Virus record (IMG/VR): IMGVR_UViG_3300042387_001591
Location: 1 to 20,770 of that record
Source of the DNA: a virus
DNA length: 20,770 bases
Reading direction: 5' to 3' (one strand)
Shown: positions 1,750 through 20,220 of the stretch, piece by piece
Layout: each line of letters starts with the position of its first letter
How positions within the stretch are numbered: position 1 is the first letter of the stretch
Notes under the pieces: generated by a model
Databases searched by the model: none
What the model saw: only the letters and a program-made list of their open reading frames with translations
What the model was told of the DNA's origin: nothing
Position numbers and translations under genes: made by a program

Positions 1750-2865
1750 TTATGGTAAGAATTTAAACCAAATATCGCCGTCGTCGCCGTCACTTGCACT
1801 TGGGTCTCCGGTACTGACAAATTTTCTACTACCGTCCCAAAAAACTGATCTAGTCATTACATATTCTGTGGTTGCGATTTGTAATGTGTTGGCGCCAAAC
1901 GCGGCAGTTGGTGCAGTAGGAACTCCACTGAATGTTGGACTCAATGTATCTGCTTTTAAAGCTAGGTTAGTAGTTAAAGCAATATTAAATGCAGTATTTA
2001 AAGCTACAATTGAAGCGTTAGTAGAAGCTATACTTACATTGGCACCATCTACCTTTGCATTAGCAGCAGCAACATTGGCTATCATTGCTGTGTTTACCGC
2101 TGAAGTTTGATCAACTCTTTGTGCTAAATTTGCATTTATAACATCAACGTTTGCTATGATTGCTGTATTAATATCGTTGTTGATAGAGTTAACTCTTGAA
2201 ATAGTGTCACGGAGTGATATTTGTGCGTTTGCCGCAGTTATATTTGCCCTCAATGAATTTTCTTCATTAATTCTAGACACTAAATTGGCATTAATAATAG
2301 TCACATTGGCCAATAAATTAGTGTCGCCTGTTGATGTTGCTGCTTGTATTTCGCTATCAACATATATCTTTGTAGTTACACCAAAGTTAGCTGAAGCGTT
2401 TGCATTTACTTCAACAAGTCCGGTTAGGCTGTTTAAATTTAAAACTCTTGTACTAGTTCCGTTTACATTAGAGTAAAAACTAATATCACCGAAGTTAGCA
2501 GAATTAGTAATCTGAACATTGCCATTTAAATCTTTAATTGCAAATCCATAAGGACCAATTTCTAAATTGCCACTTAGGTCAACGTTACCTTGTATTACAC
2601 TACCCACAGTGACCCATGTGTTTTCTGTAGTATAAACTTTTATATTGTTAGTTGTTCTATCAAACCACAATTGTCCCGAAATAGGATTTGCCGGACTGGT
2701 ATTAAATGAAAAATTTTCTAACAATCTTACAAAATTTTCGTTAGTTTGATCGCCATAATTTTGCACTAACCGACCAAAAAGAGTTATACTTGTACTAGTA
2801 GTGTCTTTAGTACCATCTAATACTACAATAACTGAACCATCGGTTTTATTTACAAAATATGACAT
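1750..2865 (-). CDS. Tail fibre-like protein with coiled-coil middle, 371 residues
   Basis: The N-terminal 85 residues contain TDGSVIVVLDGTKDT, LFGRLVQNYGDQTNENFVRL, LLENFSFNTSPANPISGQLW, a head module I recall from fibre-like proteins of marine T4-like phages; a related head occurs in the truncated gene at the left edge. Residues about 85-175 are beta-rich (GNVDLSGNLEIGPYGFAIKD). Residues about 180-290 are Ala/Asn/Val-rich with repeated ANV-x-x-(I/A)NA units and likely form a trimeric coiled coil. The end carries LKADTLSPTFSGVPTAPTAA and QIATTEYV, a common fibre motif, and closes with DGDDGDIWFKFLP. Such proteins are usually trimeric rods anchored on the baseplate. The start has an AGGAT ribosome-binding site and the stop is one base before the next ATG. 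Whether it is a long fibre, a short fibre or a connector cannot be told. Confidence 0.8.
   Translation of the reverse strand: MSYFVNKTDGSVIVVLDGTKDTTSTSITLFGRLVQNYGDQTNENFVRLLENFSFNTSPANPISGQLWFDRTTNNIKVYTTENTWVTVGSVIQGNVDLSGNLEIGPYGFAIKDLNGNVQITNSANFGDISFYSNVNGTSTRVLNLNSLTGLVEVNANASANFGVTTKIYVDSEIQAATSTGDTNLLANVTIINANLVSRINEENSLRANITAANAQISLRDTISRVNSINNDINTAIIANVDVINANLAQRVDQTSAVNTAMIANVAAANAKVDGANVSIASTNASIVALNTAFNIALTTNLALKADTLSPTFSGVPTAPTAAFGANTLQIATTEYVMTRSVFWDGSRKFVSTGDPSASDGDDGDIWFKFLP
2050..2316 (-). repeat. Imperfect internal repeats in the fibre coiled coil
   Basis: Within the 371-residue protein, LLANVTIINANLVSRINEEN (from residue 184) and AIIANVDVINANLAQRVDQT (from residue 235) are clear copies about 52 residues apart, and shorter units IANVAAANAKV and RANITAANAQI follow each of them. 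The pattern looks like duplication of a helical rod segment, a usual way in which fibre length changes. Confidence 0.65.
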
Positions 2866-2870
2866 TGTTA

Positions 2871-3566
2871 TTATCCTATGCTACTTAAGTTAGTTAAAGT
2901 TTGAATTCTTACTGTGTAATCAATCTGAATAAGTCGATTTAAACTTTTTTGTACAGGATGGAAGATAACATGTGTTAATAATTTTCCTGTAGTAGTCAAT
3001 CCAGAAGAACCATCTGTACTTCTGGCCTTTAATCCTAATTCATCAAATGTATAAGTATCTTCCAAATTAGTACTATTATCAAAAGCACTTTGTCCGGTTG
3101 GCTCGCCGTAGTCTAATAAGCAACTGACAACAATATCAGTGTAGACTCTACCCGGTACATGTCTAATCTCCATTTTATTTCTTGTGGGATCTGCATTTAA
3201 TGCGCTGGTATTGTCTACAATTTTAGCAAAAGTAGGATTGTACAAGTTACTATTGCTTGTGTTGATATTAGGAGGCAAATAGTTAATTATTCCTGTAGGA
3301 TCAATACTAGTTCCACCATTACCAAAATGCATTTCATAAATGTAGCTTTGACCTTTGTTAGCCAAAGTATATGCAATTGCTTCACTTATATTTTCATAGT
3401 GAATAGCATTTCTTTTATCAATAAAAACTTCTCCAGATTCTGGATCAAAAATTTTGATATGACCCTGAACATGTATGCCACCCGTTTCGTTGGGTTTTTC
3501 TGTAGAATTTTTTTGTAAATCTTCCATATTTTTATCCATATTACTATTTAGTTGGTTGTTGTTCAT
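2871..3566 (-). CDS. Putative baseplate/tail adaptor protein, 231 residues
   Basis: I cannot name this protein with certainty. The first 30 residues are Asn/Lys/Glu-rich and probably disordered (three Met codons at 1, 10 and 14; the first is chosen because it forms the ATGA overlap). The folded part has a strand-rich segment, IHVQGHIKIFDPESGEVF, then NAIHYENISEAIAYTLA and the Gly-rich MHFGNGGTSIDPTG (79-92). The C-terminal part carries FDELGLKAR and LLTHVIFHPVQKSLNRLIQI followed by YTVRIQTL. I associate this combination with structural proteins of T4-like marine phages. It has no visible catalytic motif, signal peptide or membrane segment. Its place between the giant wedge protein and the fibre genes, roughly where T4 has gp8 and gp9, suggests a connector that docks fibres to the baseplate; that role is inferred from position, not homology. 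Confidence 0.65.
   Translation of the reverse strand: MNNNQLNSNMDKNMEDLQKNSTEKPNETGGIHVQGHIKIFDPESGEVFIDKRNAIHYENISEAIAYTLANKGQSYIYEMHFGNGGTSIDPTGIINYLPPNINTSNSNLYNPTFAKIVDNTSALNADPTRNKMEIRHVPGRVYTDIVVSCLLDYGEPTGQSAFDNSTNLEDTYTFDELGLKARSTDGSSGLTTTGKLLTHVIFHPVQKSLNRLIQIDYTVRIQTLTNLSSIG
2873..2877 (-). promoter_or_regulatory. Ribosome binding site for the 371-residue fibre gene
   Basis: The minus strand reads AGGAT, and its last base is the first base of the TAA stop codon... the site spans 2877-2873, ending on the first stop base of the upstream gene. With a 7-nt spacer to the ATG at 2865 this supports the chosen start and tight coupling. Confidence 0.6.
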
Positions 3567-6500
3567 GGTATATAACTAGGCTCCGCTCTAATAAACTGTG
3601 CTCCTATAGTAGTACTATTTTGTAAAGTAGTGCCAGCTTGTTCCCAAATATTGCTCTGTAATACAGAAGTTCCTGTAAGAACAACATTGCCGTTTGCATA
3701 TACTTGTCCAAGCGGTGTCAAGCTAACCACATTAGCAACTGTGCTGGTTACACCTGTGGAAATGCTTGCCACATTCACTCGTGTTCCTATGTTAGCAGCA
3801 GTAATAAAAGTTCCAGTAACAAAATCAACCGCAATTACATTGGCTGAAGTAACACCGCTTAGAACTCTAGCATTTCCTGTATTACCAACAAACTGTGTTA
3901 TATAATCACCAACATTAGCAGTGATAGTGGAACTTAACAACAATTTGTATGTTACATTTGCTGTAACTTTTAAATTGCCAGTTTTTGTAGTACTAGTAAA
4001 AATTTGGGCATTTGGTATTAACTGTATCGAACTACTGTCTACTACTCGACTATTGGCTAGGTGTACATTTGGTACTCCGGTTCCATCTACTCCTCTGCGA
4101 ATTTGTCTCAATGAGTTTAAAGTAATTAATTGAATATTTGCAGAATTAACAAACGAATTAGCATTTGCATATACATTGCCCAAAGTCAAGTAAACATTAC
4201 TATTCAAAACAATCAAAGTGTCTACAGGTACATTGGTATTTGCAGACCACGGAATAGCAGTTGACATTGTTGCAACATCATATTTTTTATAATAAGTAAT
4301 TCTTTCACCATTTACAAATACAACACCAGGATTTCCCAACGAAGGCAACGGAGTTGGTAAATTGTCAACATTTGTAAGCAAAATTTCGTCTGCTGTTAAC
4401 TCTAAATTAGCAGACAGTGTACTTGTAGAATTGGCACTTATTCTTGTATACTCGATATTTGCGCTCATTGGTTGGAAAACTCTGAAACCATAAGTTTGCG
4501 TATTACCGACTGTGTTACTGAACACACGCATTTCCATAGCATCGTACATTCTGCCCGGAATTAGTTCTTCAGGTGCATGACTTGAATAAAAATCAACATA
4601 AGCTCCGCCCACAATGTTGATGTCTTGAGGTCTAGTGCCCAATGCTGTATCTAAATACTTACTGTAAATATTAGAATCAATGAAATACTCTTGGTCTAAA
4701 TAAGAAATAGTAAGATCAATATTACCGCCGGTACTACTACCACTGAATGTGGATATTCCAATAACATTAGCACCAACATTTGATCCGTTAATTGAAATAA
4801 AGTGTTGTACATTAGCACCATTGTAGAATTCTGGAACATTGTAAATAATGTCAATTTCACTGGTGTTAGTAACAGACTGTAATACAAAAGCATTCGCTAA
4901 AGTATTTGCCTGTGTGATAACATCGCCGCTACTGACAGTGACAGGTTTATCAAATTGTAATTTATAAGTAGTCTCAACAGGTTGACCTGTTAGCGTCATT
5001 GAATTACGAGTTACATTTACTATTGTGAAATAACCATTATTTTGGAAGGCGAAAGGAACATTGGCTGCAATTCTTATGTCCTTATCAACTTCAAATCCTA
5101 ATTTTATAAAATCCACTGCGGCTATATTACCACTATTAACAGTAAGACCTTCATACTTAAATGAAAAAACATTACTACTAATTTCAAAAGAATTAGCTTT
5201 AAATTCTGCACCTGTAACATAATTGCCAGGGTATTCTAATCCATTTACCAATTGGGCTAAATTCTTCCCTGGCATACCAGTTTCTGGTTGATAATAGGAA
5301 ATGATTCTATCTACAGCGTTTAATAAAACATTGCCCGAACTTATTCTATTAAATCTAGTAAAATCAAAAATTGATTCTGTAGTTACATTTGCATTTGTAG
5401 CAAGGTAGGCTTGATTATTGTACACCACAATATTGCCAGAATTAATATAAATGTTCCCAGGATCAACTGTAGTATTACCCACAACCACGATTGTATTTGC
5501 GTAAGCTGTATCAGGTTGCCAAATTACTAAATTACTTGCATATGCTACTCTATCAAATTTAAGTTCAGTTACTAAACTTCTTATTAAATTGTAACTAAGA
5601 TTAGCCTGTGTAGCATAAAATTCATTTTTAAGTAATGGATATACAGTTGCACCAACTCCGTCGCCATTAATAAAAACATTAGGAGTAGATGTATATCCAG
5701 ATCCTGGATTAGTGACTGTGATACTACTAACCTTACCATTAGCAAAGAGAGTGGTAATAGCTGCTGCACCGGCTCCGCCGCCTCCGGTAATTTCTACATT
5801 AGGAGGTAATATGTAATTTAATCCAATATTTCCTATAATATAATCAGTAACTTTGAGTTTGTAGTTTTGCGCCCAATCTGAATATAAATCTGTTGTAAAC
5901 AAAATAGCATCCGAAGATAACGATATATCTGGACTTCTAAATGTAGACGACCTTGAATCGTATGCACTAGGTAAATCAAAGTCGGTCCACCTTCCGTTAG
6001 CTAAATCTTGTCTAAAATAGCTAGGAATATATTCTCTAACTTGTGTTCTATAAGGCTTAACTTCGTTAATGTAATCATTATAAAAACTTTGATTATCTCT
6101 TACATAGCTAGGAAACTGTTCTAATGTTCTTAATTTATGATAAACATCAATGAAACTTGTTTTAATTACCCAGTCTGGATTTTTTTGTTCAACAAAAATA
6201 AAATTCAATATTGTTAAAAATAATCTATTAAATTCTGGACTTAGATCTTCTATTAATATTTCTTGATAAACACTGTCATAAATGTTTTGTAATTCTCTAA
6301 CTGCCTGAGGATCAAATCCAACCGAGTCATAAACCACGCTATCATATCCTGCACCAACAGTTACATCGTACACTTCTGTGCTTATTTCTAATGTGCCATC
6401 TTGAGCGCCAATTAAATCTAATTCACTTGACGATAAAACTTCATAAAGAAGCCATTTGCCCTGACCACTATCTAAAACTTTGATATAATTGCCTACATCT

Positions 6501-9500
6501 GGTGTCAGTGCCTGGATATCACTGTATATATTAACTGTATAGTTGATCTCCTTACCTAGCAAATAATTTTCAGAGTACCAATCTCTAGGATTCCAAAATA
6601 AATCAGTTTTAAAACTTTGTAATTTAAACAGCTCAAAAGTATCGTTTGTAGAGTTAAAACTGTAGATACTCCATTTTCCTTGATATGTGGAATCTTGCGG
6701 AATTAAAATTTTGTAACCGTTTGGAAATGCTTCGGTATTTAAATATGTTAAATTTATAACACTATCAGTTTGGGTGTCAAATCCTGTTGTAGGGATAGGA
6801 TCTTCTATATACAAACTAGAAGGAGTAGTAATTAGAAGAATTGGATAGTTAAATAAAATTGAATTTAATGTTTTGACATAATTTTGGAGTGCCCCTAATC
6901 TGTCAAGCACCATTGATTGCCTTGGAGTGTTTAAAATACCTAATCTATCTTGTAGATTTAAAAATGGATCTGGTACATTTAATCCATTAAGATCAAACCC
7001 TGCAAGACTGTCTTTAAGTTTGTTAATAGCTCTGAGTGGAATTGACTCTGCACCGGCTCCTTGCTGAACTAGTTGCCATTCATTATGTAATAAATTACTA
7101 TTTCTTTTCTCTGCAGTACTAATGTGTAAAGCAACATTATTGCCTACTAACTTATCTGTAGTGTTGTACACTGCAATAGCATTAGGTGCAAGTGTTGCAA
7201 GATAAGGTATGTTTTGATCTTTTGGATTTGTTATGTAAGCTTCTAAAGATTTGACACTTAATGTTCTTCTTGCCAAATTGACATCAACGCTTGTTTTTCC
7301 AGAGACCCAATAATAATATTTTTGATTTATTATACCAGTAGCAGGATCTACAATCATAACCGAAGTGTATGCCGAATCGTCTGCGTATTTTGCAATTCCA
7401 TCGTTAACAGCATTGGCATATTGACTTGGTAAAAAATCGCTTTCTATCCACTCATAAATTGTGACCTGACTGTCTGGAAATAGACTACCCCAGTTCTTTA
7501 CTCTATATTGTAATATATCCTGTTCATAATCAATGAAACTTGCTGTAGACAAATCCCACCAAGTTCTACCAACTTGTTTTTCTGACCAATAAAAATTTGT
7601 ATTGTTTATGGTATCTGATCTACTTGAATTTTTGTAACTAGCAGGATCGTACTCTTCGCGGTAGTCAATTTCTTGATCAACAATACCTAACAATTTTCCT
7701 TTAGCAGGATCTAAATAATCGTAGAAGTCTAATATATTTTGAGATACTGTATTATATAAAAATGCACTAGTTATAGCGCCAATGTCTACACGAGGTTCTT
7801 TGTACCTTGTGAGTGCCCAGCCCGACTTCGCGTCTTGATTATAAAAATAATATAAACTTCCGCCGCCGGCAGTTACATTAAAATCATTAGAAACACCAAC
7901 AATTAAAAAGTCTGCCCTAATGTCAATGCTTGATCCAAAATTAAATCCAGTATTTAAGTTAGGTCCAGTTAGTTTCTGAGAATATGCAAACAATGAAGGA
8001 TTATTAACATCCTCGTATGGATTTTGTAGTAGATTATAAATGTATACAGCACCGCTGTCAGTTATTAAATCAATAAATTTTGTACCGCCGCTGTCAAAAG
8101 TTGTAGGCACAGCTAAATTGCTATCAATTTGAATTGGAATAGATATATCAGCACCGTCACTTCCGATAGCAAGAGTACCACTATCTTGATCAACTTTTAA
8201 AGTTGTGCCAAAAGTTTCTCCTAGAGTTTCTGGATGTTTAATAACTTGGACATATTGATAATCATCTATACCCAAATCTTGTAATGGCGTACCTATATTA
8301 CCCGATACTACATTTAATTTGTTTGCTACCACAATAACATCACTTACAATTTTCAAGCGATTATTATCATTAGAAGCAGTAACACCTGGAATATTTGCTC
8401 CGTTAATATTATTAATTACTGCGGCTAATGTTGTTCCAGTAAATGTTACTGTTCGATCATTAATAACAATACTTTCGCCAACGGTTACTGTAGGATTCTC
8501 AACTGTTGCTGTTAAAGTTCCATAGACTCTACCAACATTAATATATCTTGTAACTAACCCAAATCTATAGTTTGCTTCTAGATATTTAGGACTCGAAACA
8601 TATATGTTGCACCCGCTGCTGCACATTGACATGTATGTTCCGAACGCCTCTCCTTGTAAACCTACAGTCTGCGGGTATATAGATTGATCAAGTATGAATT
8701 GATTGGTTTCAAATTTTAATTTATTTCCGGCAGGCAATGGATCAATCCCCGAATCACCGTATTGAATAAGATTGGCACCAATAACAGTATACAAAGCACT
8801 TACTCCAGCAGGTGCATTGTTAATATTGTAAATTAATTCATTGTTTAAAAATACTCGATAAACTGATCCAAGATTATCCGGTAATGCAAATGTGTTAGTT
8901 AAACCATTTGTGGTTATTTCTGTAACAGTTCTATGATATACATATAACGCACCTGCGCCGGCAATTCCGTCAACTGTTGTATTACTAGCACCAACTGCTA
9001 TAGTAGTTCCGTCTTGGTTACAAACTACAGAGATACCAAATTGATCGCCGGCAGTTGACTCCGAAGACAAAGGTAAGGTATCTAAAAGTGTGTAGAAATT
9101 TGGTCTTTTTTGTACTGTAATTCTTTCGCCTGGTGTTGGCGCTACATTAAAAATTATTCTGTCAGGACCTGATGCAACTGTGTAATCAATACCTGGCAAA
9201 TATTCTGCAGATCGCAACGGAACTGTGACTATTATATCAGATGCTGTAGTTGCCGAAAAAGTCAAATTATATGTTGACGACCCCGATGCAGTGATATTTT
9301 GTATTTCATTATTTCTTGGATAATTCAAACTGTAACAGTAAACTTTATTAGCGCCCGGGGCACCAATGTAAAGATAATTTCCATTGTCAGACATTGCTAA
9401 AGAAGCGCCAAAATTATCGCCTGCACTGCCTGCACTATCACTTAAGATTTGAATTAAGACTTGATTTTCAAAAATGTAAACTACGCCCTGTCCGCTGCCA

Positions 9501-12500
9501 GAATCTGGAGCAGCTACAGCTAAAAAAGATATTCCGTCGGTGGTTGCAGTTGCTAGCACTTTTCCAAAACTGTCTAATTGTGCATTATTGCCCCATAAAA
9601 AACCATAACTGTCCCATCCATTACTAGAATTTCTCGCATATATACTCACACGACCGTCAGAGCTATCAGGGGCACCGGCATATAAGTAAAGAGCAATATT
9701 ATCTAATACAACTGCTCTACCAAAATGATCATTACCTGCATACTGACTCTCACCAAGTTGTATTCTTGATTGATAACCCCAGACATCAGTCTTTGTATAC
9801 ACGCCCCAGTTGCTTTGATTATCTAGATTATCAATCCATACTTTATCGTTGGTTAACCATCCGCCATTTGGTACTTGATTTACGATATCTGTTGTTGCGG
9901 CCAAACGACTACTTGTAAGCCTATAGACCAAACCGTTACTAATTACTGCTTCGTCATTAATTAGTTCTTGTAGGTTACTGTATATTGTTACTAAAAATCT
10001 TGTGCTATCAATAATGGAATCTACAAAATATATTCCATTATATCTTACATCAAAATTCTTCAATGCAATTAAATTGCCAACTTCTAATCCGTGCTCGGCA
10101 CTCATTACAATTTCTGCCTGAGAGTCAACCGAATATCTCAAAATAAACGCCAAGCCCTGCACCGAAGTCGCACGATATACATTCCAAGAATTATTAAAAT
10201 CTTTAGCTGTCCATATCGTGTAGCCTACTCCTATGTTTTCAACTAGACTAGAATATTTGGTATAATCAGTGATATTAAATATAGTGGCATCAACATCATC
10301 TGAGTTAACGAAACCCGCAACTGGTAAAGATTTTAATTCCTTTGGTAAATCAATTGATTCTGTTCTTAAAAAGTCAGCGGTAAAATTTCCACTGTTCTTG
10401 TAAACATCAGTGACTGAAAAATTAACGATATCAGACTGTGCAGTTGTAGAACCGTCGGTGACCTGAAATACGGAAGGATTATTATCAAAGTCTGATTCAG
10501 ACAAAATAAATTCAATAAATTTATTAATGTCCAGAGCTCCATATTCACCAACTCTGATTGCCCAATTTTCAAAAAAATCAAGCTCAGTGTTTAAATTATT
10601 AAATTGAGCACCTTTCAATGCATTAATTGCATTAGTGGTACCACCTTGTTTAATTAATCCTTGGTAAAACTTGCTTTGTGTTGTTAAATCAATTCCCAAG
10701 TTAGTGAAATATTGTCTTGGTCTAAATCCTATTAATCCATTACTGAATAATTGAATTTTTTCATCTACTGGTTGATTATTCACATCATAATATCTCAATG
10801 ATTGTGATGCATTAGTTGCAAAGTTGTTTAATACACCAAACTTTAGTTCATTTTGAGCCAATAGTTGCCATAGTGTTATTTGAAATTCATCATTAGCAGT
10901 AATATTTTCCAAGGCTGTATATACTCTGCCTTTATGATTTACTACTGATCCTTTCAAATAATCTGTTCCCGGCAACCATTCTGTTACTTTTTCGCTACTA
11001 TAAACAAAACCTGGCAATTCTAAACTTCCATTCCATAAACCAGTTTTGCTTCCTACTAATTTTAATCTATATTGTCTATTTCCTGTTTCCGGAACATAAA
11101 CTACATCATTGAATACTGTTGTATTATCAAAAATTAATATATGTTCATATTGAACTATATTCAATTCAGCATAGCCGATAGTTTGATTAGAGAGTGATTG
11201 GATTGCAAATAAATTGTTTTCTCTGTTTATTGTAAAATTATTTTTGATAATCGGAGTATAATTAATGTCTAATATTCTGCTACCGGTTGGTGTATTGAGA
11301 ATCTCGTCTACAACACTAGATTCATTAAAAACTTTTAAATTACCCGAAACTGGGCTCAAGACTATAATATTTCCACTTCGCCACCCTTGAGTGGTCCAAT
11401 GTAAAAATTCTTTAGCACTCAATACCCAATCTTTTGTTTCATTTAAAAGATTATCTCTATCTTCAAATATAAAACCTTGTGATATTAAATATCTTTGATA
11501 ACCAACTAAGAAATCTACAATTTGTTGTTTGTTATCAAACTCAAAACCATAAGGAATACTAAATCTTTGATTTTTAAAATCTCTATAAACAACTCCTCGT
11601 TGCCCACTTACCTCTATTGTATAGGCATTGTTATTGGGTAAGCTAGGAATAATATTAAAATACGGGTCATTGATATCATAACCACTAACTGCATACCCGT
11701 TGGGTGTTTTCTCAATTATTACAGCCGAATATACAATTTTATTTAAAGGAGCCCCTTTATATAGATCAATAGTATAATTTTCTTCAGGGATTACCACACT
11801 ATCATTGATACTGCTTGGGCTTATTTGTTCGGCGAGTATTTCTAAAAATCTTTTGTCTGAATAGCTTGCCATTTTATAAGTTAGCTGTACAGACATCCCG
11901 GCCAGTGCTTGTTTTAAAACAGTACCAGCATCAGCTACACCTGTGTTTTTGATATAATCTCTAATCCAATTGATATACCCGGCACTTCTTTCTATAACTC
12001 CGTTATTATCAACATAGCCATTTACTCGTAAAGAACTTGGTTGCAAATGTTTTTTTGTGTTTATATTTAAAAATTGCCCAAGGTAAATGTCGCGATTATA
12101 GTCCTTGACATCTGCCAATAAAGAAAAATATTTTGCTGGTTTACCGATGGCCAAAGCATACTGCATAGCAAATGGAAAATCGCTGCTTCTTCTCCATGCT
12201 AATTCTGTAGGACCAATATCGCCGACTGAAAAACTTGTGTTTGCATTTGCACTATCAAAATCAGTTACTAAAAACTCTGATGGACTTCTTAGATTTCCAT
12301 TTTCGTCAACTGGAATAAACGCTGTTAATCCAGGTCTACTGTATCTGAAATCAATACCAGAACGAGTACCTTCGTGTATGTAGCCGGATTCTAAATCACT
12401 CCATAGTAAGAAATTACCTCCGGTATAAGGAGCAGGTCCATATCTGTCATTCCAGTAACTTGGCTTTTTGCTAAACCCTAACATTTCCCAAGGATGAGTA

Positions 12501-15500
12501 TGAGGTCTATCTGTGTCAAAGAAATATCTAAAAATACTTCTCCATGTCCCTGGTAATGATTCGCCATTTATTACATCTCTGAATTTTTTGTAATTCCAAG
12601 TAAATGGATCAGATGCGACAAAAGTATTATTTGTAGTAAAATCTACTCGATTGGTTCCTACCCATCGTAGGAAATTTTTACTTAAAAGCTGATTAAACTC
12701 TTGTCTGTTATAATCTAAAATTCTAAATTTTCCAGGAAGATAATCGTTAATATTAAAGTTGTTAATATCATATTCAACCTTAATATTATTGTAAATTCTT
12801 CTTTCTAATTCGAGTAATAGACTATCTCTAAAATCTCCAAATGCTGGAGTTAAACTTCCATCGTGTCCTTGTATGACCTGAACAGGTTTACGGTATGTAT
12901 TATCTAAAAATATCTCAGGAACATAACTGGGATATAAACCTAATTTTGTTGGGGTCTCTGGTACATAACTACCATCGGTGCTGTTATACTCAACAATTGT
13001 TAGAATGTCGTTGTATAATAAATTAAAAGAATCTTGTATTATAACCGCAGGCCTAGTTTGATCAAAATAATAATCTTGTTCTTTGACCAATAATATTTTT
13101 GTAGTTTGTCCTTCTAGTGTTCTTGTTAGATAAACAAATACTGCTTTATTACTAACGACTGTGTCTTGAAAAATATTTGTTATTTCATATGCCCTAATAT
13201 CAGTATCAAATACAGTATAACTAGGCAAAGTTACTTTTTCATCATCGCCGTGCGGAACCATGTCGCTATAGTGCCATGGAAAACTATCATTTTTAATGGC
13301 ATTAAGTTGCCCCATGATTGCATCTACTGATCCTGCTATGTCGCTTCTATCTAAATCTAAATTAGATGCTAATTCTAAAAATTTAATTTTAAATTGAGAA
13401 TATTCTTTGCTAGCTAATCTTAATGAATCAATAAAATTCATCTGTGGATTATTTAAAAATAAGCCAGAATAAACAAGAGGTGCGCTATGTTGTAAAATCC
13501 CACCACCACGATTTAAATAGTAAATGTCTCTGAGATTACTATTTCCTGGTACATCTCCAATTATGTCAAGACTATTGTTTTTAAATTCAATTAAATGATT
13601 TCTTAATTGTCCTAGTGTTAGTAATTCAATATCTGTGTTTAGACTATTAATATCAAAATTTACTGGAACTTGATAAAATGCTTGTCTTGAGGTAGATAAA
13701 CTGTTGTAAATGCTAACAAATACAACATCGCCATTGGTTAATATTGAAGGATCTACTAAAATTGCTAGTTTATCTACTGCTTTGGTTATAGCAAAGCTGG
13801 TATTTGAAATTTGTCTATTATTCAAAAATACTTTGATATTCGGGATGTCTACACTTAAATCAGGTAAAATATCTACAGGAAATAAATTGGTAGTTCCATC
13901 ATATGTAAAATTAAAAATTTGATATTGCTTACTAAAATTTGAATTAATTGTCCAAATGTTAATCCTTGTATTAGTATCTCTTGAAATATTTTTTTGTAAT
14001 AAACCAGAATTTACACTAATCGTTTCACTTACTCCACCTTCTAATAGGTATGTAAAAGTGTCAAGATCAAAATTATTCTCAAATTGAATATCACCTTGCG
14101 TGACAAGATTCTTATAACTTAAAGGAAAACCTAAAACAGGATCATTTGAGCCTGATCCAATTTTGTATGATAATATTTTAGTTCCTGCAAATTGGCTTCC
14201 GGGGAAAAACGAAAAATTAGAAAAACTTATACCATCACTAGTAATAACATCAAATAACGGAGCTTGATTGATCGACGATTTTTGTTGGCCTGCAATCCAT
14301 ATGGTACCGTTGTAATACCATTGTCTTGGCAGTAAATCACTCCATGCAGTAGAATTGACTAAAATTACATGTCCCGGTTCAACTAGCGAATCAACGGCCT
14401 CTTCTATGTAGGCTCTGTATTCCTCGGGGGGACCTTCTGACATTACTTCTATTCTAAAATTGTAAATTTTGTTTCGTACATCAAGATTTTCATCATTACT
14501 AAAAATAACTCTATCTCCACTTTGTAGAGTTACAGAGTCATCTCCAACTTGAATAGTCAGTTGTGTAGGAAATATGCAGATTACACCTTGTATTTGACTA
14601 TATGCGTTAGTTATAATGGTATCTAAGATATCAACTGTATTTTTTGCTTCTGTACCAAAATTAAACAATTGCAAATCTGGAACAAATTCAATAATAGGTC
14701 TTTGAGCTCTTCCGTTTTGATCTAAAATAAAATCTGTACCAGTATATTGGGCGGTTTTTTGTATAACATCAACATGAAACCACCGATTACTTCTTGACCA
14801 TCCGTTTAAGTCTATACTGCTTCTATTAATAGTTAAATAATCTGGATTTGAAAGATCATTATCTAATTCAGGGCAAACAAGATCATCAACTGGTACTAGT
14901 TTTATTGATACGCCAACTCCTTCAACATAAAAAGTTTTATTAGCATAAAAACTTGTTGCGGTTGCATCAAAATTAACTTTTAAACCATTAGTGAATAAAA
15001 CACCATTTGGACTTGTATAATTTTTTTGTCCTACAATTTCACTGTCCGGGTCAATATTAGCCGATGCTGGATCAATTAATTGTATGCCCCCTACTGCATT
15101 GTCAGTCTGATCGCTCTGATAAAACAGCAAATTTGATGGAGCAGTTATGGCAGGAATTTCATTAAAAATGTCTAATCTACTGTAAAATTCTTTACCTGCG
15201 TTTGTTACACCGGCTGTTACTCTAATTTTTTGTTCATTATTAACTAATGATTTACTGGATAGGTAAACTCTCGGACGATCTTGGTCGTCATTAAATATAT
15301 TAATTTTGTAAACATCGTTTCTCTGACCTAAAGGTATTAATTGATCTTGGTCAAGATATATTATATTGTCAACTACTCTGGCTGTATCGTGCCAATAAAT
15401 ATCATCAATAAATTCGTTGTTAACAAATATTAAACTAACATTTTCCAGAGAATTAGTGGGTCCATCTAATCCTCCTAAAACATCTTGTAAATCGTTAACT

Positions 15501-16315
15501 AAACAACCTTGTAATGATTGGTAACTCAATCTTGTTGCGTAATTCGCCGTCGCTGCCAACGACATATTAGTCCATTCAACTTGACTATCAGCCAATGGCA
15601 CTTGAAAAGTTACACTGCCAACTTCTTGACCATTCTCAGATACCCCGAACACATTTCTAGTGTTTAAATTAGGTGCATTAGGATCTACGCCCAATGAACC
15701 AGGGCTTGATTGAATGAAAAACTTGTTACCTGGTTCATTTATTACGAAGGTGTACAATCCGCCCCGCGCTAATGTTAATAAAGGATTAGGAACATTATCA
15801 ATAGAACTAAATTTATAAGTCTTTGATATTGAATCATATGAGACTTCAAAAGTCTGTTGAAGTGGAACTGTAGAAGCAGTAACAGGAACACTAAGTGGGC
15901 CCTGTTCTAGCCAGTAATATTGTGCATAATTAACAAATTTGTCTAAATCAATTTGAGGATCGTACGAATAGTACTCGTTGTCAAAAAGTCTTGAATGATT
16001 TTCACTTAAACCGCCATAAAAATTTATTTTATTAACAATATCAATGTAAGTGGTAGCAAATGTTAAATCCCCAGTTATGGGATCTTTAATAATTACACTT
16101 GGTTCTAATTGATAATCTTGCCGAATTTTAGTAGGTTCAGTAACATAACTGTCAGTGGCCTTATAGGATGGAGCAAGTTTTCTTCCAATATATCCTGTGC
16201 TTCTAATTAAATTAGGTTCGCTAGTAAGTTGGTCAACCGTTGCGTTCAGAAACTTTTTATTAGTATCTGTTCTAAAAATTTCAGGTAAAAATTGAATCGT
16301 CTGAAAAGCTGCCAT
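3563..16315 (-). CDS. Giant 4,250-residue multidomain baseplate/tail protein (gp7 position)
   Basis: One uninterrupted frame of 4,250 codons follows gp6. By position it replaces T4 gp7 (about 1,030 residues), but the identity with gp7 is inferred from order. Visible parts: an N-terminal region (about 1-140) with QTIQFLPEIFRTDTNKKFLN and FVNYAQYYWLEQGP; a fibre-type beta module near 799-870; an aromatic region near 1270 with HPWEMLGFSKKPSYWNDRYG; a carbohydrate-binding-like segment (WLPGTDYLKGSVV...W) at 1776-1819; seven FG-GAP repeats at 2189-2826; a conserved-looking segment with QKNPDWVIKTSFIDVYHKLR and EVKPYRTQVREY at 3373-3433; a GSGYTSTP module near 3505-3560; further WQPDTAY-like segments near 3600 and 4022; and an Asn/Val-rich C-terminus. 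No signal peptide or membrane segment is seen. It probably forms the outer wedge and may contact the cell. The stop overlaps the next start as ATGA. Confidence 0.75.
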   Translation of the reverse strand: MAAFQTIQFLPEIFRTDTNKKFLNATVDQLTSEPNLIRSTGYIGRKLAPSYKATDSYVTEPTKIRQDYQLEPSVIIKDPITGDLTFATTYIDIVNKINFYGGLSENHSRLFDNEYYSYDPQIDLDKFVNYAQYYWLEQGPLSVPVTASTVPLQQTFEVSYDSISKTYKFSSIDNVPNPLLTLARGGLYTFVINEPGNKFFIQSSPGSLGVDPNAPNLNTRNVFGVSENGQEVGSVTFQVPLADSQVEWTNMSLAATANYATRLSYQSLQGCLVNDLQDVLGGLDGPTNSLENVSLIFVNNEFIDDIYWHDTARVVDNIIYLDQDQLIPLGQRNDVYKINIFNDDQDRPRVYLSSKSLVNNEQKIRVTAGVTNAGKEFYSRLDIFNEIPAITAPSNLLFYQSDQTDNAVGGIQLIDPASANIDPDSEIVGQKNYTSPNGVLFTNGLKVNFDATATSFYANKTFYVEGVGVSIKLVPVDDLVCPELDNDLSNPDYLTINRSSIDLNGWSRSNRWFHVDVIQKTAQYTGTDFILDQNGRAQRPIIEFVPDLQLFNFGTEAKNTVDILDTIITNAYSQIQGVICIFPTQLTIQVGDDSVTLQSGDRVIFSNDENLDVRNKIYNFRIEVMSEGPPEEYRAYIEEAVDSLVEPGHVILVNSTAWSDLLPRQWYYNGTIWIAGQQKSSINQAPLFDVITSDGISFSNFSFFPGSQFAGTKILSYKIGSGSNDPVLGFPLSYKNLVTQGDIQFENNFDLDTFTYLLEGGVSETISVNSGLLQKNISRDTNTRINIWTINSNFSKQYQIFNFTYDGTTNLFPVDILPDLSVDIPNIKVFLNNRQISNTSFAITKAVDKLAILVDPSILTNGDVVFVSIYNSLSTSRQAFYQVPVNFDINSLNTDIELLTLGQLRNHLIEFKNNSLDIIGDVPGNSNLRDIYYLNRGGGILQHSAPLVYSGLFLNNPQMNFIDSLRLASKEYSQFKIKFLELASNLDLDRSDIAGSVDAIMGQLNAIKNDSFPWHYSDMVPHGDDEKVTLPSYTVFDTDIRAYEITNIFQDTVVSNKAVFVYLTRTLEGQTTKILLVKEQDYYFDQTRPAVIIQDSFNLLYNDILTIVEYNSTDGSYVPETPTKLGLYPSYVPEIFLDNTYRKPVQVIQGHDGSLTPAFGDFRDSLLLELERRIYNNIKVEYDINNFNINDYLPGKFRILDYNRQEFNQLLSKNFLRWVGTNRVDFTTNNTFVASDPFTWNYKKFRDVINGESLPGTWRSIFRYFFDTDRPHTHPWEMLGFSKKPSYWNDRYGPAPYTGGNFLLWSDLESGYIHEGTRSGIDFRYSRPGLTAFIPVDENGNLRSPSEFLVTDFDSANANTSFSVGDIGPTELAWRRSSDFPFAMQYALAIGKPAKYFSLLADVKDYNRDIYLGQFLNINTKKHLQPSSLRVNGYVDNNGVIERSAGYINWIRDYIKNTGVADAGTVLKQALAGMSVQLTYKMASYSDKRFLEILAEQISPSSINDSVVIPEENYTIDLYKGAPLNKIVYSAVIIEKTPNGYAVSGYDINDPYFNIIPSLPNNNAYTIEVSGQRGVVYRDFKNQRFSIPYGFEFDNKQQIVDFLVGYQRYLISQGFIFEDRDNLLNETKDWVLSAKEFLHWTTQGWRSGNIIVLSPVSGNLKVFNESSVVDEILNTPTGSRILDINYTPIIKNNFTINRENNLFAIQSLSNQTIGYAELNIVQYEHILIFDNTTVFNDVVYVPETGNRQYRLKLVGSKTGLWNGSLELPGFVYSSEKVTEWLPGTDYLKGSVVNHKGRVYTALENITANDEFQITLWQLLAQNELKFGVLNNFATNASQSLRYYDVNNQPVDEKIQLFSNGLIGFRPRQYFTNLGIDLTTQSKFYQGLIKQGGTTNAINALKGAQFNNLNTELDFFENWAIRVGEYGALDINKFIEFILSESDFDNNPSVFQVTDGSTTAQSDIVNFSVTDVYKNSGNFTADFLRTESIDLPKELKSLPVAGFVNSDDVDATIFNITDYTKYSSLVENIGVGYTIWTAKDFNNSWNVYRATSVQGLAFILRYSVDSQAEIVMSAEHGLEVGNLIALKNFDVRYNGIYFVDSIIDSTRFLVTIYSNLQELINDEAVISNGLVYRLTSSRLAATTDIVNQVPNGGWLTNDKVWIDNLDNQSNWGVYTKTDVWGYQSRIQLGESQYAGNDHFGRAVVLDNIALYLYAGAPDSSDGRVSIYARNSSNGWDSYGFLWGNNAQLDSFGKVLATATTDGISFLAVAAPDSGSGQGVVYIFENQVLIQILSDSAGSAGDNFGASLAMSDNGNYLYIGAPGANKVYCYSLNYPRNNEIQNITASGSSTYNLTFSATTASDIIVTVPLRSAEYLPGIDYTVASGPDRIIFNVAPTPGERITVQKRPNFYTLLDTLPLSSESTAGDQFGISVVCNQDGTTIAVGASNTTVDGIAGAGALYVYHRTVTEITTNGLTNTFALPDNLGSVYRVFLNNELIYNINNAPAGVSALYTVIGANLIQYGDSGIDPLPAGNKLKFETNQFILDQSIYPQTVGLQGEAFGTYMSMCSSGCNIYVSSPKYLEANYRFGLVTRYINVGRVYGTLTATVENPTVTVGESIVINDRTVTFTGTTLAAVINNINGANIPGVTASNDNNRLKIVSDVIVVANKLNVVSGNIGTPLQDLGIDDYQYVQVIKHPETLGETFGTTLKVDQDSGTLAIGSDGADISIPIQIDSNLAVPTTFDSGGTKFIDLITDSGAVYIYNLLQNPYEDVNNPSLFAYSQKLTGPNLNTGFNFGSSIDIRADFLIVGVSNDFNVTAGGGSLYYFYNQDAKSGWALTRYKEPRVDIGAITSAFLYNTVSQNILDFYDYLDPAKGKLLGIVDQEIDYREEYDPASYKNSSRSDTINNTNFYWSEKQVGRTWWDLSTASFIDYEQDILQYRVKNWGSLFPDSQVTIYEWIESDFLPSQYANAVNDGIAKYADDSAYTSVMIVDPATGIINQKYYYWVSGKTSVDVNLARRTLSVKSLEAYITNPKDQNIPYLATLAPNAIAVYNTTDKLVGNNVALHISTAEKRNSNLLHNEWQLVQQGAGAESIPLRAINKLKDSLAGFDLNGLNVPDPFLNLQDRLGILNTPRQSMVLDRLGALQNYVKTLNSILFNYPILLITTPSSLYIEDPIPTTGFDTQTDSVINLTYLNTEAFPNGYKILIPQDSTYQGKWSIYSFNSTNDTFELFKLQSFKTDLFWNPRDWYSENYLLGKEINYTVNIYSDIQALTPDVGNYIKVLDSGQGKWLLYEVLSSSELDLIGAQDGTLEISTEVYDVTVGAGYDSVVYDSVGFDPQAVRELQNIYDSVYQEILIEDLSPEFNRLFLTILNFIFVEQKNPDWVIKTSFIDVYHKLRTLEQFPSYVRDNQSFYNDYINEVKPYRTQVREYIPSYFRQDLANGRWTDFDLPSAYDSRSSTFRSPDISLSSDAILFTTDLYSDWAQNYKLKVTDYIIGNIGLNYILPPNVEITGGGGAGAAAITTLFANGKVSSITVTNPGSGYTSTPNVFINGDGVGATVYPLLKNEFYATQANLSYNLIRSLVTELKFDRVAYASNLVIWQPDTAYANTIVVVGNTTVDPGNIYINSGNIVVYNNQAYLATNANVTTESIFDFTRFNRISSGNVLLNAVDRIISYYQPETGMPGKNLAQLVNGLEYPGNYVTGAEFKANSFEISSNVFSFKYEGLTVNSGNIAAVDFIKLGFEVDKDIRIAANVPFAFQNNGYFTIVNVTRNSMTLTGQPVETTYKLQFDKPVTVSSGDVITQANTLANAFVLQSVTNTSEIDIIYNVPEFYNGANVQHFISINGSNVGANVIGISTFSGSSTGGNIDLTISYLDQEYFIDSNIYSKYLDTALGTRPQDINIVGGAYVDFYSSHAPEELIPGRMYDAMEMRVFSNTVGNTQTYGFRVFQPMSANIEYTRISANSTSTLSANLELTADEILLTNVDNLPTPLPSLGNPGVVFVNGERITYYKKYDVATMSTAIPWSANTNVPVDTLIVLNSNVYLTLGNVYANANSFVNSANIQLITLNSLRQIRRGVDGTGVPNVHLANSRVVDSSSIQLIPNAQIFTSTTKTGNLKVTANVTYKLLLSSTITANVGDYITQFVGNTGNARVLSGVTSANVIAVDFVTGTFITAANIGTRVNVASISTGVTSTVANVVSLTPLGQVYANGNVVLTGTSVLQSNIWEQAGTTLQNSTTIGAQFIRAEPSYIP
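3564..3566 (-). other. ATGA stop/start overlap between the giant gene and the next gene
   Basis: The minus strand reads ATGA at 3566-3563: the TGA ends the giant frame and the ATG starts the 231-residue gene. The nearest GGAG is about 17 nt upstream, too far for efficient use, so initiation by termination-reinitiation coupling is likely. Confidence 0.6.
7838..9752 (-). other. Seven FG-GAP-type repeats (predicted beta-propeller) in the giant protein
   Basis: Seven units share the pattern G-x-x-F-G, about 10-15 residues, a hydrophobic strand ending in G/A-x-P or G-A/S, and a final VY-x-Y/F strand. Approximate residues and markers are: 2189-2227 (NDHFGRAV, YAGAPDSSDG); 2247-2282 (LDSFGKVL, AAPDSGSGQG); 2300-2332 (GDNFGASL, IGAPGANK); 2422-2461 (GDQFGISV, VGASNTT); 2552-2592 (GEAFGTYM); 2697-2759 (GETFGTTL, IGSDGAD); 2787-2826 (GFNFGSSI, VGVSNDF). 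Seven units match the closed seven-blade propeller of integrin alpha chains. Acidic residues typical of calcium loops (DSSDG, SDGAD) are present in some units only. The fold is inferred from the repeat pattern. Confidence 0.75.
8303..8492 (-). other. Flagellin-IN-like module inserted between propeller blades 5 and 6
   Basis: Residues about 2609-2671 of the giant protein read VTVGESIVINDRTVTFTGTT, then LAAVINNINGANIPGVTASN, then NRLKIVSD. The order of an I-x-I-N strand, a helix with IN-x-x-x-x-x-x-GV-x-A and a final RLKI strand resembles the flagellin hook IN motif found in flagellins and hook proteins and in some phage structural proteins. It is a plausible protruding subdomain of the propeller. 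The assignment is by pattern only. Confidence 0.5.
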
Positions 16316-16326: not shown

Positions 16327-19300
16327 TTAACCAGTTATATTAAGTTGCGCTGCTGTGATAGCAGAAATTATTTGTACATTATCTACAGTTGCAGCACTTA
16401 CTAAAATTTCGTCAGGGTCTGCATTAATTTGATACAAAGTTCCAAATTGACTTCCGGTATTTGACGGAACAATAACTATACTGCTTACATTTGGAACTAA
16501 CGAAGTGTGCAGATATGCACTTAATTCGCTGAAGTAAAAAGTTTCTCCAAAATCCCAATTGTTAATATCAAAATATGTATTAATAGCAGCAATTACTTGG
16601 CTTTTTATTTCGTTATCACTGATTGTGACATTTGGATTTTTAATAACTTTAAATGTTGCTCTAAGAGCAGCATCGGCTTTGTTACCAAATAGAGGTTTAA
16701 AAACTGCTGGATTGTAAATTATGCTATCACTAATTGTTTTAAATAATTCAATAGATCCAAATTCAGTTTTAATTTCGTCTATAGATGGAGCTACTGGTTG
16801 TTTAATTCTTCCGCTTGTGTCAGTGATATATGAAAAATAATCATTGGAATAAGTTTTTGTTAGAATGTAAAAATCTATTAGATTATTTGGACTAGGATCT
16901 ATTCTACGATTATTCGCCGCATTGTGCTTATACTGAAACTGTAAATTTTGTCTACCAACTCTTGCTATATAATTTGTAACTAAAGTCGCGCTCGTACCAG
17001 TTGATTCGTAAAAAGCATTTTCAGCAGTTGCATAAAAAATAGTTCCTGTTGCATACAAAGAAATATTAGCTAAAATTGCTTCTAATACTGTATAAGCACT
17101 TACAATTAGTGTCTGATCAATTGAGTTATATATTAAAAAGTTGTATTGGTCCACTGATTCAACAAAATAAACATTTTTATTTGCGGTATTGACGGTTGGT
17201 GCAACAAGTTCAATAAACAAATCAGGATCGTCAGGGACCTCATCTAAATTATCATCAGGGAAAGTAATTTTTATTTTTCTGTTATCGTCGATTCCGTCCG
17301 GACCAACTGCATTGTCCCATATTCTATAAATTTGGCTATAGAATAAAGAATTACTCGAATCTGGTTCAGTATTTGTTCTTAGCACCCTGATGCTATCAAC
17401 CAAAGTTGTGGCTGTTCTACTATCATATACTCGCACATCTGGATCAAAATAGAATCTAGTTTCTCTTTCACTTTCGAACAAATAATTCAAACCTCTACTT
17501 ATTGCAGTATACTCGCCGGTCGCAAAAGACAAACTAATGAACCAACTGTTATCTATACCAGTGCCTGCAGTACTACCGGCGTTTGTTAAATTAAAACTTC
17601 CATTGCCTAAATTTTGACTTTCAATGATTTTCCATGACATGGTAGGAATATCATAGCGTAAGCCAAATGTTTTGTAACTTAAAATTTGTAAAATTATATC
17701 ATTAATTAAAGTTTCTGACCAATCGTTAGCAAATACTGGTATAATTTCACTTACTATAGCTGTAGATGGTACCACAACACTAAGTGTAGCAATTGCAGTT
17801 AGTCCTGGATTATCATAATTTATTATACTGGCCCATATATGAGTTCGTTGAAATTCTGTTGTTGGTGTCCCAGTTTGCAACTGATTTTGTGCGTCAAAAT
17901 ATGTTCCTGCAGGAGCAACAAATTTAACCAAACTGCCTTGTACTAAAAATGTATAATTAGGACTATTAAAAAATCCTGAACTACGGCTACCTGTATTGTT
18001 AGTTTGAGTCCATGTGGCCACGGTGGCAATTGTACCGGACCCAATACCTGCAAATCCTGCGCTGGTTGCAGTAAAAATCGTTCCTACAGTATTAGATGCC
18101 GCACCAAATAAAGTAAAATTAGTAGTTCCTACACTTATAATTTTATAAACAGTTCCTGTGTCCATGCTCGTGGCATTTATGGTTGATCCTTGAGGACTAT
18201 TTCTTGTTGCTGTATCGTAATATAAATGTCTGGTGGTAATCGTAGATATTAAAGGTTTTAAAATATTTCTGACAATAGCGTTTACTTCAATACTACTAGT
18301 AAATTGAAAGTTTTCTGTTTCTGAATAGTCTTCTTTATAAATTATACCATCTTCTGCAAAAATATTTGTGCTAGAATATTTGCCTGTAGTGTCAATGACA
18401 TCTAGGTATCTACTAGTGCCCGAACTACTTCTATTGACTGCTTTAATTTTTAAAATATTGCTAAAGGTGGTGTACGGTAGAACATTGTAATCCTCACCGG
18501 TTACCATCCGATTTTGAGTGTAATATTGTTGGGGAGCTTTAGTTCTAATTTCTTCGAGCGACTCTCTTGAAATTGCATTTGTTACCGTATATTTTAAACT
18601 CGCTCTGATAGTTAAAGTTTCTGCTCTACCAGTTCGACCACGGTAAGGAATACTTATAATAATACCAGACATTTCGTCAGGTGTAATTTTGTAGGTTAGG
18701 TTATTACTTACTCTATAGTATACCCTAAAGTTTCCAACAGGAATATTGGTAAATGAACCATCACCAAATACTAGGTCAATTTGATCATTTGCTCTAGAAG
18801 ATACACTATATAAATTTCTTTGATCGATATTATTATAAATTACATTTATTCCGTTAACCGCAGGAACTTGAGTCCATAAAGTGCTTAAATTATTCCCGGA
18901 AGTTAATGAGTAAAGCCACACATCTGTATTATTAATATTGTCAAAATTAATGTTGACTATTCTATTAGGTAAACTTTCGCTAATACTAAAATCCAAGTTG
19001 TTTAATGCGCCTTGCTTGAAATACAAGAAATATCCTGTATTATTGCTTGCATTTCCTTGATTATCATTTCTGTACAGTATGTTAAAAGCACCACCAGGGC
19101 TAGGGGTTGATTCATAAATGTAATTTTGATTATTACTAGTAGCACTCACTATTTCAAACGGGTAAGTAACTCCTGCTATTGATGCAGAATAAGGAAATGT
19201 TGGGGTTACCCCTGTAATAATATCAACTGTGTATTCGTCTGTTTTGACGCCACTTAAATTTTTTGATGCGCCTGGTTTTCCAATAGCTTGCGTAGCCACT

Positions 19301-19791
19301 AAAGAAGCATTTAAAATGCCGGTGAATTGCTCTAACCAGTTCTCGTTTGTTCCGTCATTCCAAGTTACAACTACATTTGATAAGTTGATGCCGGTACTGT
19401 CAAATATTGTTTCGGAAGTACTAACGCTATCAAATTTTAAAAATCCCGACGCTGGTGTGCTTCTTTTTGGGTTATAACTAACTAATCTAGCCAGCTTAAG
19501 AATGCTGTCTCTGCGCTCGGCAGTATCTATAAAATTTTCACGGGCATTCAAATCAGTTCTAAATGCCAAACTTTGCCCTAAAAATGCAATAAGATCAATT
19601 AGTGCTATATATTCGGAACTATCTGTAAAATCATTAAAATCTTCAGGATAGTATGTGCGTAAGTACTCAATCATTGACTTACGCAAGGTTTCGTAATCAA
19701 AACTCTGGAAATCAGCCTCTCTGAAAGTCTGATAAATTTTAGTCCAATCTTGTTGTACTAGTAAACTTGTTTGTCTTGTAGTAATAGCCAT
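16327..19791 (-). CDS. 6: Baseplate wedge subunit, gp6-like, enlarged
   Basis: The 1,154-residue product has the two conserved ends expected of gp6/baseplate-J-like wedge proteins. Residues about 1-115 carry the helical N-terminal region with DFNDFTDSSEYIALIDLIAF, RTDLNARENFIDTAERRDS and LARLVSYNPKR. Residues about 1040-1154 carry the C-terminal region with VIAAINTYFDINNWDFGETF, YFSELSAYLH and FGTLYQINADPDEI. In T4 gp6 forms the ring of wedges around the hub, with gp25 and gp7 as partners, which agrees with its neighbours here. T4 gp6 is about 660 residues, so roughly 500 residues are extra, mostly in the middle. They include a module at about 544-592 (VGTTNFTLFGAASNTVG, then FTATSAGFAGIGSGT) that I recognise from marine phage structural proteins. 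The start has a TAGG ribosome-binding sequence and a promoter-like box upstream. The gap to the next gene is 11 nt. Confidence 0.92.
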   Translation of the reverse strand: MAITTRQTSLLVQQDWTKIYQTFREADFQSFDYETLRKSMIEYLRTYYPEDFNDFTDSSEYIALIDLIAFLGQSLAFRTDLNARENFIDTAERRDSILKLARLVSYNPKRSTPASGFLKFDSVSTSETIFDSTGINLSNVVVTWNDGTNENWLEQFTGILNASLVATQAIGKPGASKNLSGVKTDEYTVDIITGVTPTFPYSASIAGVTYPFEIVSATSNNQNYIYESTPSPGGAFNILYRNDNQGNASNNTGYFLYFKQGALNNLDFSISESLPNRIVNINFDNINNTDVWLYSLTSGNNLSTLWTQVPAVNGINVIYNNIDQRNLYSVSSRANDQIDLVFGDGSFTNIPVGNFRVYYRVSNNLTYKITPDEMSGIIISIPYRGRTGRAETLTIRASLKYTVTNAISRESLEEIRTKAPQQYYTQNRMVTGEDYNVLPYTTFSNILKIKAVNRSSSGTSRYLDVIDTTGKYSSTNIFAEDGIIYKEDYSETENFQFTSSIEVNAIVRNILKPLISTITTRHLYYDTATRNSPQGSTINATSMDTGTVYKIISVGTTNFTLFGAASNTVGTIFTATSAGFAGIGSGTIATVATWTQTNNTGSRSSGFFNSPNYTFLVQGSLVKFVAPAGTYFDAQNQLQTGTPTTEFQRTHIWASIINYDNPGLTAIATLSVVVPSTAIVSEIIPVFANDWSETLINDIILQILSYKTFGLRYDIPTMSWKIIESQNLGNGSFNLTNAGSTAGTGIDNSWFISLSFATGEYTAISRGLNYLFESERETRFYFDPDVRVYDSRTATTLVDSIRVLRTNTEPDSSNSLFYSQIYRIWDNAVGPDGIDDNRKIKITFPDDNLDEVPDDPDLFIELVAPTVNTANKNVYFVESVDQYNFLIYNSIDQTLIVSAYTVLEAILANISLYATGTIFYATAENAFYESTGTSATLVTNYIARVGRQNLQFQYKHNAANNRRIDPSPNNLIDFYILTKTYSNDYFSYITDTSGRIKQPVAPSIDEIKTEFGSIELFKTISDSIIYNPAVFKPLFGNKADAALRATFKVIKNPNVTISDNEIKSQVIAAINTYFDINNWDFGETFYFSELSAYLHTSLVPNVSSIVIVPSNTGSQFGTLYQINADPDEILVSAATVDNVQIISAITAAQLNITG
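18015..18163 (-). other. Inserted surface module in gp6 (VGTTNFT/FTAT type)
   Basis: Residues about 544-592 of the gp6-like protein contain ISVGTTNFTLFGAASNTVG followed by IFTATSAGFAGIGSGTI. This is a short, Gly/Thr-rich beta-type module of a kind I recall as recurring in unrelated fibre and baseplate proteins of marine phages. It lies between the conserved N- and C-terminal regions of gp6, so it probably sits as an exposed insertion. Its function is unknown; a surface decoration or glycan contact is inference. Confidence 0.55.
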
Positions 19792-19839: not shown

Positions 19840-20220
19840 TTATGCTGCAACCACAGTGTTTAATTCTTTATTAAACTGTAGGGATAGTACATCGCTTAAG
19901 TTATCTGGTAAAAAAGTTAATTCAAGTTGAATTTGTAATCCATAATCAAATTGGTCGACTAAGATATTATCAACCCGCACTCTAGGATCATACGAAGCTA
20001 CTCTTTGAATATCTTCTACAATAAGTGCTCTAACATCTGCGGTTAATGGCTCAAACAGAACATTCCAAATTATACTACCAAATTCAGAATTCATTAATTT
20101 TTCGCCCTTTCTAAGAGCAAAATGGTTAAGTAAATCACGCTTAATTAAATCTAAGTCAGTTAAGCGAAATTTCTTATATTGATCAATTGTACTGAAACCT
20201 TTGTATCTTGTAATAGCCAT
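19840..20220 (-). CDS. 25: Baseplate wedge protein, gp25-like (GPW/gp25 family)
   Basis: This 126-residue protein matches the gp25/GPW family in length (T4 gp25 is about 132 residues) and in motif order. An N-terminal helix is followed by LRKGEKLMNSEFG (about residues 36-48), a hydrophobic IIWNVLFEPL segment, a helix with VRALIVEDIQ, and the signature YDPRVRV at 77-83. In the family the signature is usually E-P-R; here Asp replaces Glu, a conservative change. It ends in paired beta strands (LQIQLELTF). gp25 is a conserved wedge and sheath-initiation component, related to TssE of type VI secretion. The ATG lies 8 nt after the upstream stop and is not preceded by a recognisable Shine-Dalgarno sequence, so translation is probably coupled to the upstream gene. 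The next gene downstream is its expected partner gp6. The family call is secure. Confidence 0.95.
   Translation of the reverse strand: MAITRYKGFSTIDQYKKFRLTDLDLIKRDLLNHFALRKGEKLMNSEFGSIIWNVLFEPLTADVRALIVEDIQRVASYDPRVRVDNILVDQFDYGLQIQLELTFLPDNLSDVLSLQFNKELNTVVAA

Follow-up and report, generated by a model that had tools for sequence, protein, structure and literature searches.

The stretch of DNA analysed here (the window) comprises 20,770 nucleotides of the IMG/VR virus record IMGVR_UViG_3300042387_001591, and most of it is taken up by one gene on the minus strand (16315..3563); all window features given below with coordinates lie on that strand. The giant gene has 4,250 codons (12.75 kb) with zero interruptions, and stops occur throughout the plus strand across the same region. 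A Shine-Dalgarno-like AGGA lies ∼8 bases 5' of its ATG, and its stop codon and the start codon of the next gene share the bases ATGA. An earlier note on this DNA, which did not give the strand, had described one uninterrupted 12.75-kb frame with a good ribosome-binding site and an ATGA overlap, placed after gp25 and gp6 in the slot of gp7; this description is borne out, and both neighbours were identified by profile or Pfam matches. Comparison with a 75%-identical relative over 4,227 aligned codons gave differences of 0.22, 0.14 and 0.51 at the three codon positions, and since they fall mainly on third positions, the frame is under purifying selection.

The giant gene directly follows gp6, which is the position of gp7 in T4. 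The upstream neighbour (16327..19791) encodes a gp6-like baseplate wedge protein of 1,154 residues (phrog_10646, 1.8e-299) that matches P-SSM2 gp6 in a profile comparison (probability 97.6). It is preceded by a gene for the 126-residue baseplate wedge protein gp25 (19840..20220; PF04965, 1.5e-8), and a gene fragment at the window edge, also upstream of the giant gene, matches a tail-lysozyme/hub family. T4 gp6 has 660 residues, and because only residues 27–442 of the gp6-like protein align confidently with gp6, it carries large additions of its own. Isolates and contigs alike show the order gp25-gp6-giant, with gp6 upstream in 79 loci and gp25 in 74. In SCTP-2, gene 141 (L006 10612–19902), which lies upstream of the giant gene where gp6 belongs, is itself 9.3 kb long. 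On the other side, the gene overlapping the giant gene by ATGA (2871..3566; PHROG 11259, 231 aa) is conserved and also lies 3' of the giant gene in PA5oct, Atu_ph07, Phosso and SCTP-2; its product, which may act together with the giant protein as a conserved partner, is 93–94% identical in relatives whose giant proteins reach only 70–75%.

A conservation profile of 58 sequences divides the giant protein into conserved blocks (residues 1–145, ∼480–550, 640–760, 900–1900 and 2850–3450) and variable parts (residues 150–400, 2190–2840 and 3450–4250, the last with insertions concentrated near 3900). The conserved N-terminal block (residues 1–145; 15881..16315), for which no match was found outside the family, is followed by a variable insert region (residues 150–400; 15116..15868). 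It is probably in this region that phrog_677, a gp9/gp10-related connector family, has its match, which was found within the N-terminal 760 residues in 14 of 30 relatives. The most conserved core comprises residues 901–1900 (10616..13615), and a PDB sequence search with the N-terminal block and the core returned nothing significant. Within the core lies a chitin-binding-type CBM_5_12 module (residues 1779–1807, with a fold of ∼1775–1822; 10895..10981; Pfam 3.9e-7) that is present in 28 of the 30 relatives and whose model matches a module of this type in baseplate or fibre proteins of phages Milano and 7-7-1 (Z 7.0, rmsd 1.3–1.6 over 45–47 residues). The segment that follows (residues 1851–1950; 10466..10765) contains a candidate gp7-core motif, FYQG.I.[KG]GT..A, whose homology to gp7 is not established. 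Further on, a variable region (residues 2190–2840; 7796..9748) contains FG-GAP repeats (Pfam FG-GAP_2, 5.3e-7, three stretches) that probably form a beta-propeller; then come a second conserved block (residues 2851–3450; 5966..7765) and a variable C-terminal module region (residues 3451–4250; 3563..5965), which includes a GSGYT..P.V.I.G.G.GA module common to cyanophage gp7 and PHROG 460. A T4 gp6-like fold at residues 489–656 and 1134–1167 was considered and rejected, as the weak collinear matches to T4 gp6 alone were not sustained with gp6 family profiles.

The giant protein adds a member to a family of giant virion proteins already on record for jumbo phages and is ordinary for its lineage. 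It matches PHROG 10938 ("virion structural protein") with an E value of 0 and 1113.7 bits over four stretches; every member of three segment alignments matches this PHROG too. Homologs of the protein were found in 59 phage records and 75 viral loci, and a DNA-level search in phages gave zero matches. The giant proteins of PBECO4 (gp538, 3,333 aa), RaK2 (ORF070, 3,326 aa), SCTP-2 (gene 140, 3,807 aa), PA5oct (gp355, 3,857 aa), Atu_ph07 (gp180, 4,449 aa) and Phosso (4,555 aa) are homologous to it over most of their length and share its slot and size class (3,300–4,555 aa), and nearly all giants of PHROG 10938 isolates are encoded immediately 3' of gp25 and gp6. They differ from the window protein in that identity is only ∼25–30% and the middle FG-GAP region and the C-terminal modules diverge. 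Identity along the core is 43–46% for two UniProt entries from uncultured Caudovirales (A0A6J5L8L4 and A0A6J5T0D1, 'YHYH domain containing protein'), which are environmental sequences without function. Sinorhizobium phage AP-J-162 has the same gene trio, with products of 131, 1,198 and 4,455 aa (PMC11242549), and its gp58 is probably a member of the PHROG 10938 type. In phage CBB, the gene adjoining gp6 (CBB_236) yielded 21 virion peptides (PMC5259590), and from its position we infer that CBB_236 is homologous to the giant protein. The record of PA5oct gp355 notes detection by ESI-MS/MS; the published mass spectrometry concerns these two relatives. In the available text of the records and papers on the RaK2, PBECO4, PA5oct, Atu_ph07, Phosso, SCTP-2, AP-J-162 and CBB giants, the name gp7 was not found.

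Single giant proteins in the gp7 slot are already known, and annotated, in cyanophages. P-SSM2 has a protein annotated gp7 of 5,195 residues immediately after gp25 and gp6, S-SSM7 has two proteins annotated gp7 of ∼3,000 residues each, and PHROGs lists several families from phages of this sort that run to between 3,000 and 6,000 positions. T4 gp7 has been described as absent from pelagimyophages and cyanomyophages, where it is seemingly replaced by VrlC (PMC7029224). The cyanophage giant gp7/VrlC (P-SSM2 gp7, PHROG 2885) resembles the window protein in slot, size (3,000–5,200 aa) and common accessory modules, but homology of the cores is not demonstrable: in a profile comparison of the two, only accessory modules at residues 3488–3566 and 3963–4010 were common, and the gp7 motif lies near the N-terminus of cyanophage gp7 whereas the candidate motif of the window protein lies at ∼residue 1,880. 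A module in L033, L034 and L035 (residues 769–887) and in L072 is 36–39% identical to residues 1303–1432 of P-SSM2 gp7 (blastp to 8e-15), a sign that the two giant families have exchanged modules.

We consider it likely that the giant protein is a baseplate-wedge structural protein of the RaK2/PA5oct/Atu_ph07-type jumbo myophage lineage that does the job of gp7 and also carries modules for the host surface. The gp7 assignment rests on the position of the gene and on six complete relatives, in which the gp7 family profile detects no T4-type gp7 gene; the same profile does find T4 itself and the cyanophage giants. These relatives carry the whole-genome check, the window's own record being a fragment of 20.8 kb. 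We infer the placement in the wedge from gene position, because no baseplate structure of the RaK2-type jumbo lineage was found in the literature, and the PHROGs category of PHROG 10938, 'head and packaging', was counted against it. We propose that the protein, probably one copy per wedge, would join the inner ring of gp25 and gp6, presumably in contact with gp6, and then spread outwards. The conserved blocks at residues 480–1900 and 2850–3450 would form a wedge scaffold in place of T4 gp7, and the variable ends, together with the CBM-type module and the FG-GAP repeats, may be turned towards the host surface or anchor fibres. Annotations of the PHROG 10938 family mostly stop at "virion structural protein". 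Its assignment to the slot of gp7, given that the six complete relatives have no other detectable gp7, offers a concrete target for structures of jumbo-phage baseplates and a way of testing whether the gp6-gp7 wedge core is universal.

The core may be a diverged gp7 or, alternatively, an unrelated protein that substitutes for it. The likeness of the giant protein to T4 gp7 (PHROG 964; Pfam Gp7_helical, Gp7_5th and Gp7_6th; 1,032 aa) consists in its position after gp6. It has zero matches to PHROG 964 and the Pfam gp7 domains, and none to PF23786 or to P2 gpI/Tail_P2_I (PF09684); the 80 P2 gpI loci gathered for a profile of our own were nearly identical and gave no useful profile. Profile comparison with T4 gp7 (hhalign) gave a probability of 0.1 for the family and of 96 for cyanophage gp7. 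Even so, it is a real, if tentative, possibility that the protein is a true but highly diverged gp7, in which the core bundle survives at ∼residues 1590–1950 and the remainder consists of accreted modules. Its slot and size class match those of P-SSM2 gp7, and the motif FYQGFIKxKGTxxA (residues 1875–1895) resembles DFYSTKGIEAS of T4 gp7 and SFYQSKGIEES of cyanophage gp7. Residues 1851–1950, which contain this motif, scored best among the 70 segments of one scan (E 0.0013, against 0.02 for the next unrelated one), but in a broader control the motif pair ranked only ∼20th of 903 comparisons (E ∼0.01), within noise, so that the "KGT" helix motif, though suggestive, is not above noise as a sign of gp7. 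A structure search with an AlphaFold2 model of residues 1090–2060, a weak model with low confidence in the motif helices, recognized only the CBM5/12-type module, and no gp7 chain was among the matches listed.

A protein without homology to gp7 that came to occupy its slot, which we regard as possible but somewhat doubtful, would explain why every sequence-level gp7 test fails and would agree with the absence of significant PDB sequence matches for the N-terminal block and core; distant gp7 homologs, however, often escape sequence detection, and cyanophage gp7 itself keeps merely a short motif. The wider statement that, in RaK2-like jumbo phages, an unrelated giant scaffold bearing host-binding modules has taken the place of gp7, a wedge protein regarded as universal among contractile tails, seems unlikely. 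The proposal in the earlier note of a gp7 with added adhesion functions is supported by the slot, the CBM_5_12 module and the FG-GAP repeats, and is not supported as regards homology to T4 gp7.

The earlier note had further suggested that peripheral wedge functions were absorbed, and this found no support. A gp7 that swallowed gp8, gp9, gp10 and gp11 would account for the length and for the phrog_677 matches, but we judge it very improbable since profile comparisons of T4 gp8, 9, 10, 11, 12 and 53 with the giant protein found nothing and PA5oct keeps a gp10-like gene separate from its giant gene (2.2e-17). Separate genes of the two kinds, which the note had named as contrary evidence, were thus seen for gp10 in PA5oct and for gp7 in none of the six complete relatives; gp8-like genes were not found in the relatives, apart from one marginal 28-residue match.

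An assembly artefact fusing several genes, for which the window itself offers nothing, has practically no probability and is refuted by dozens of independent contigs and complete genomes, isolates among them, that carry the giant gene in one intact frame of 3,300 to 4,900 codons (complete copies mostly 4,000 to 4,900), which also excludes a frameshift artefact. The split by a stop or frameshift that the note had allowed for was seen only in the L058 contig, where the gene lies in two frames (3,742 and 863 codons), owing either to a genuine break or to an error in sequencing. Where it overlaps the giant gene, fragment L040 shows 100% identity to the window.

Three further genes occupy the 3' side of the locus, on the minus strand. 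Those at 1–258 and 1750–2865 (PHROGs 14394 and 15511) have a GQLW-type domain at the N-terminus in common and apparently encode duplicated tail-fibre-like proteins. The gene at 312–1820 encodes a glycine-rich product with three imperfect V.G.WK.I repeats close to its end; its true start may be further downstream, because the listed TTG start overlaps the preceding gene by ∼70 bases.
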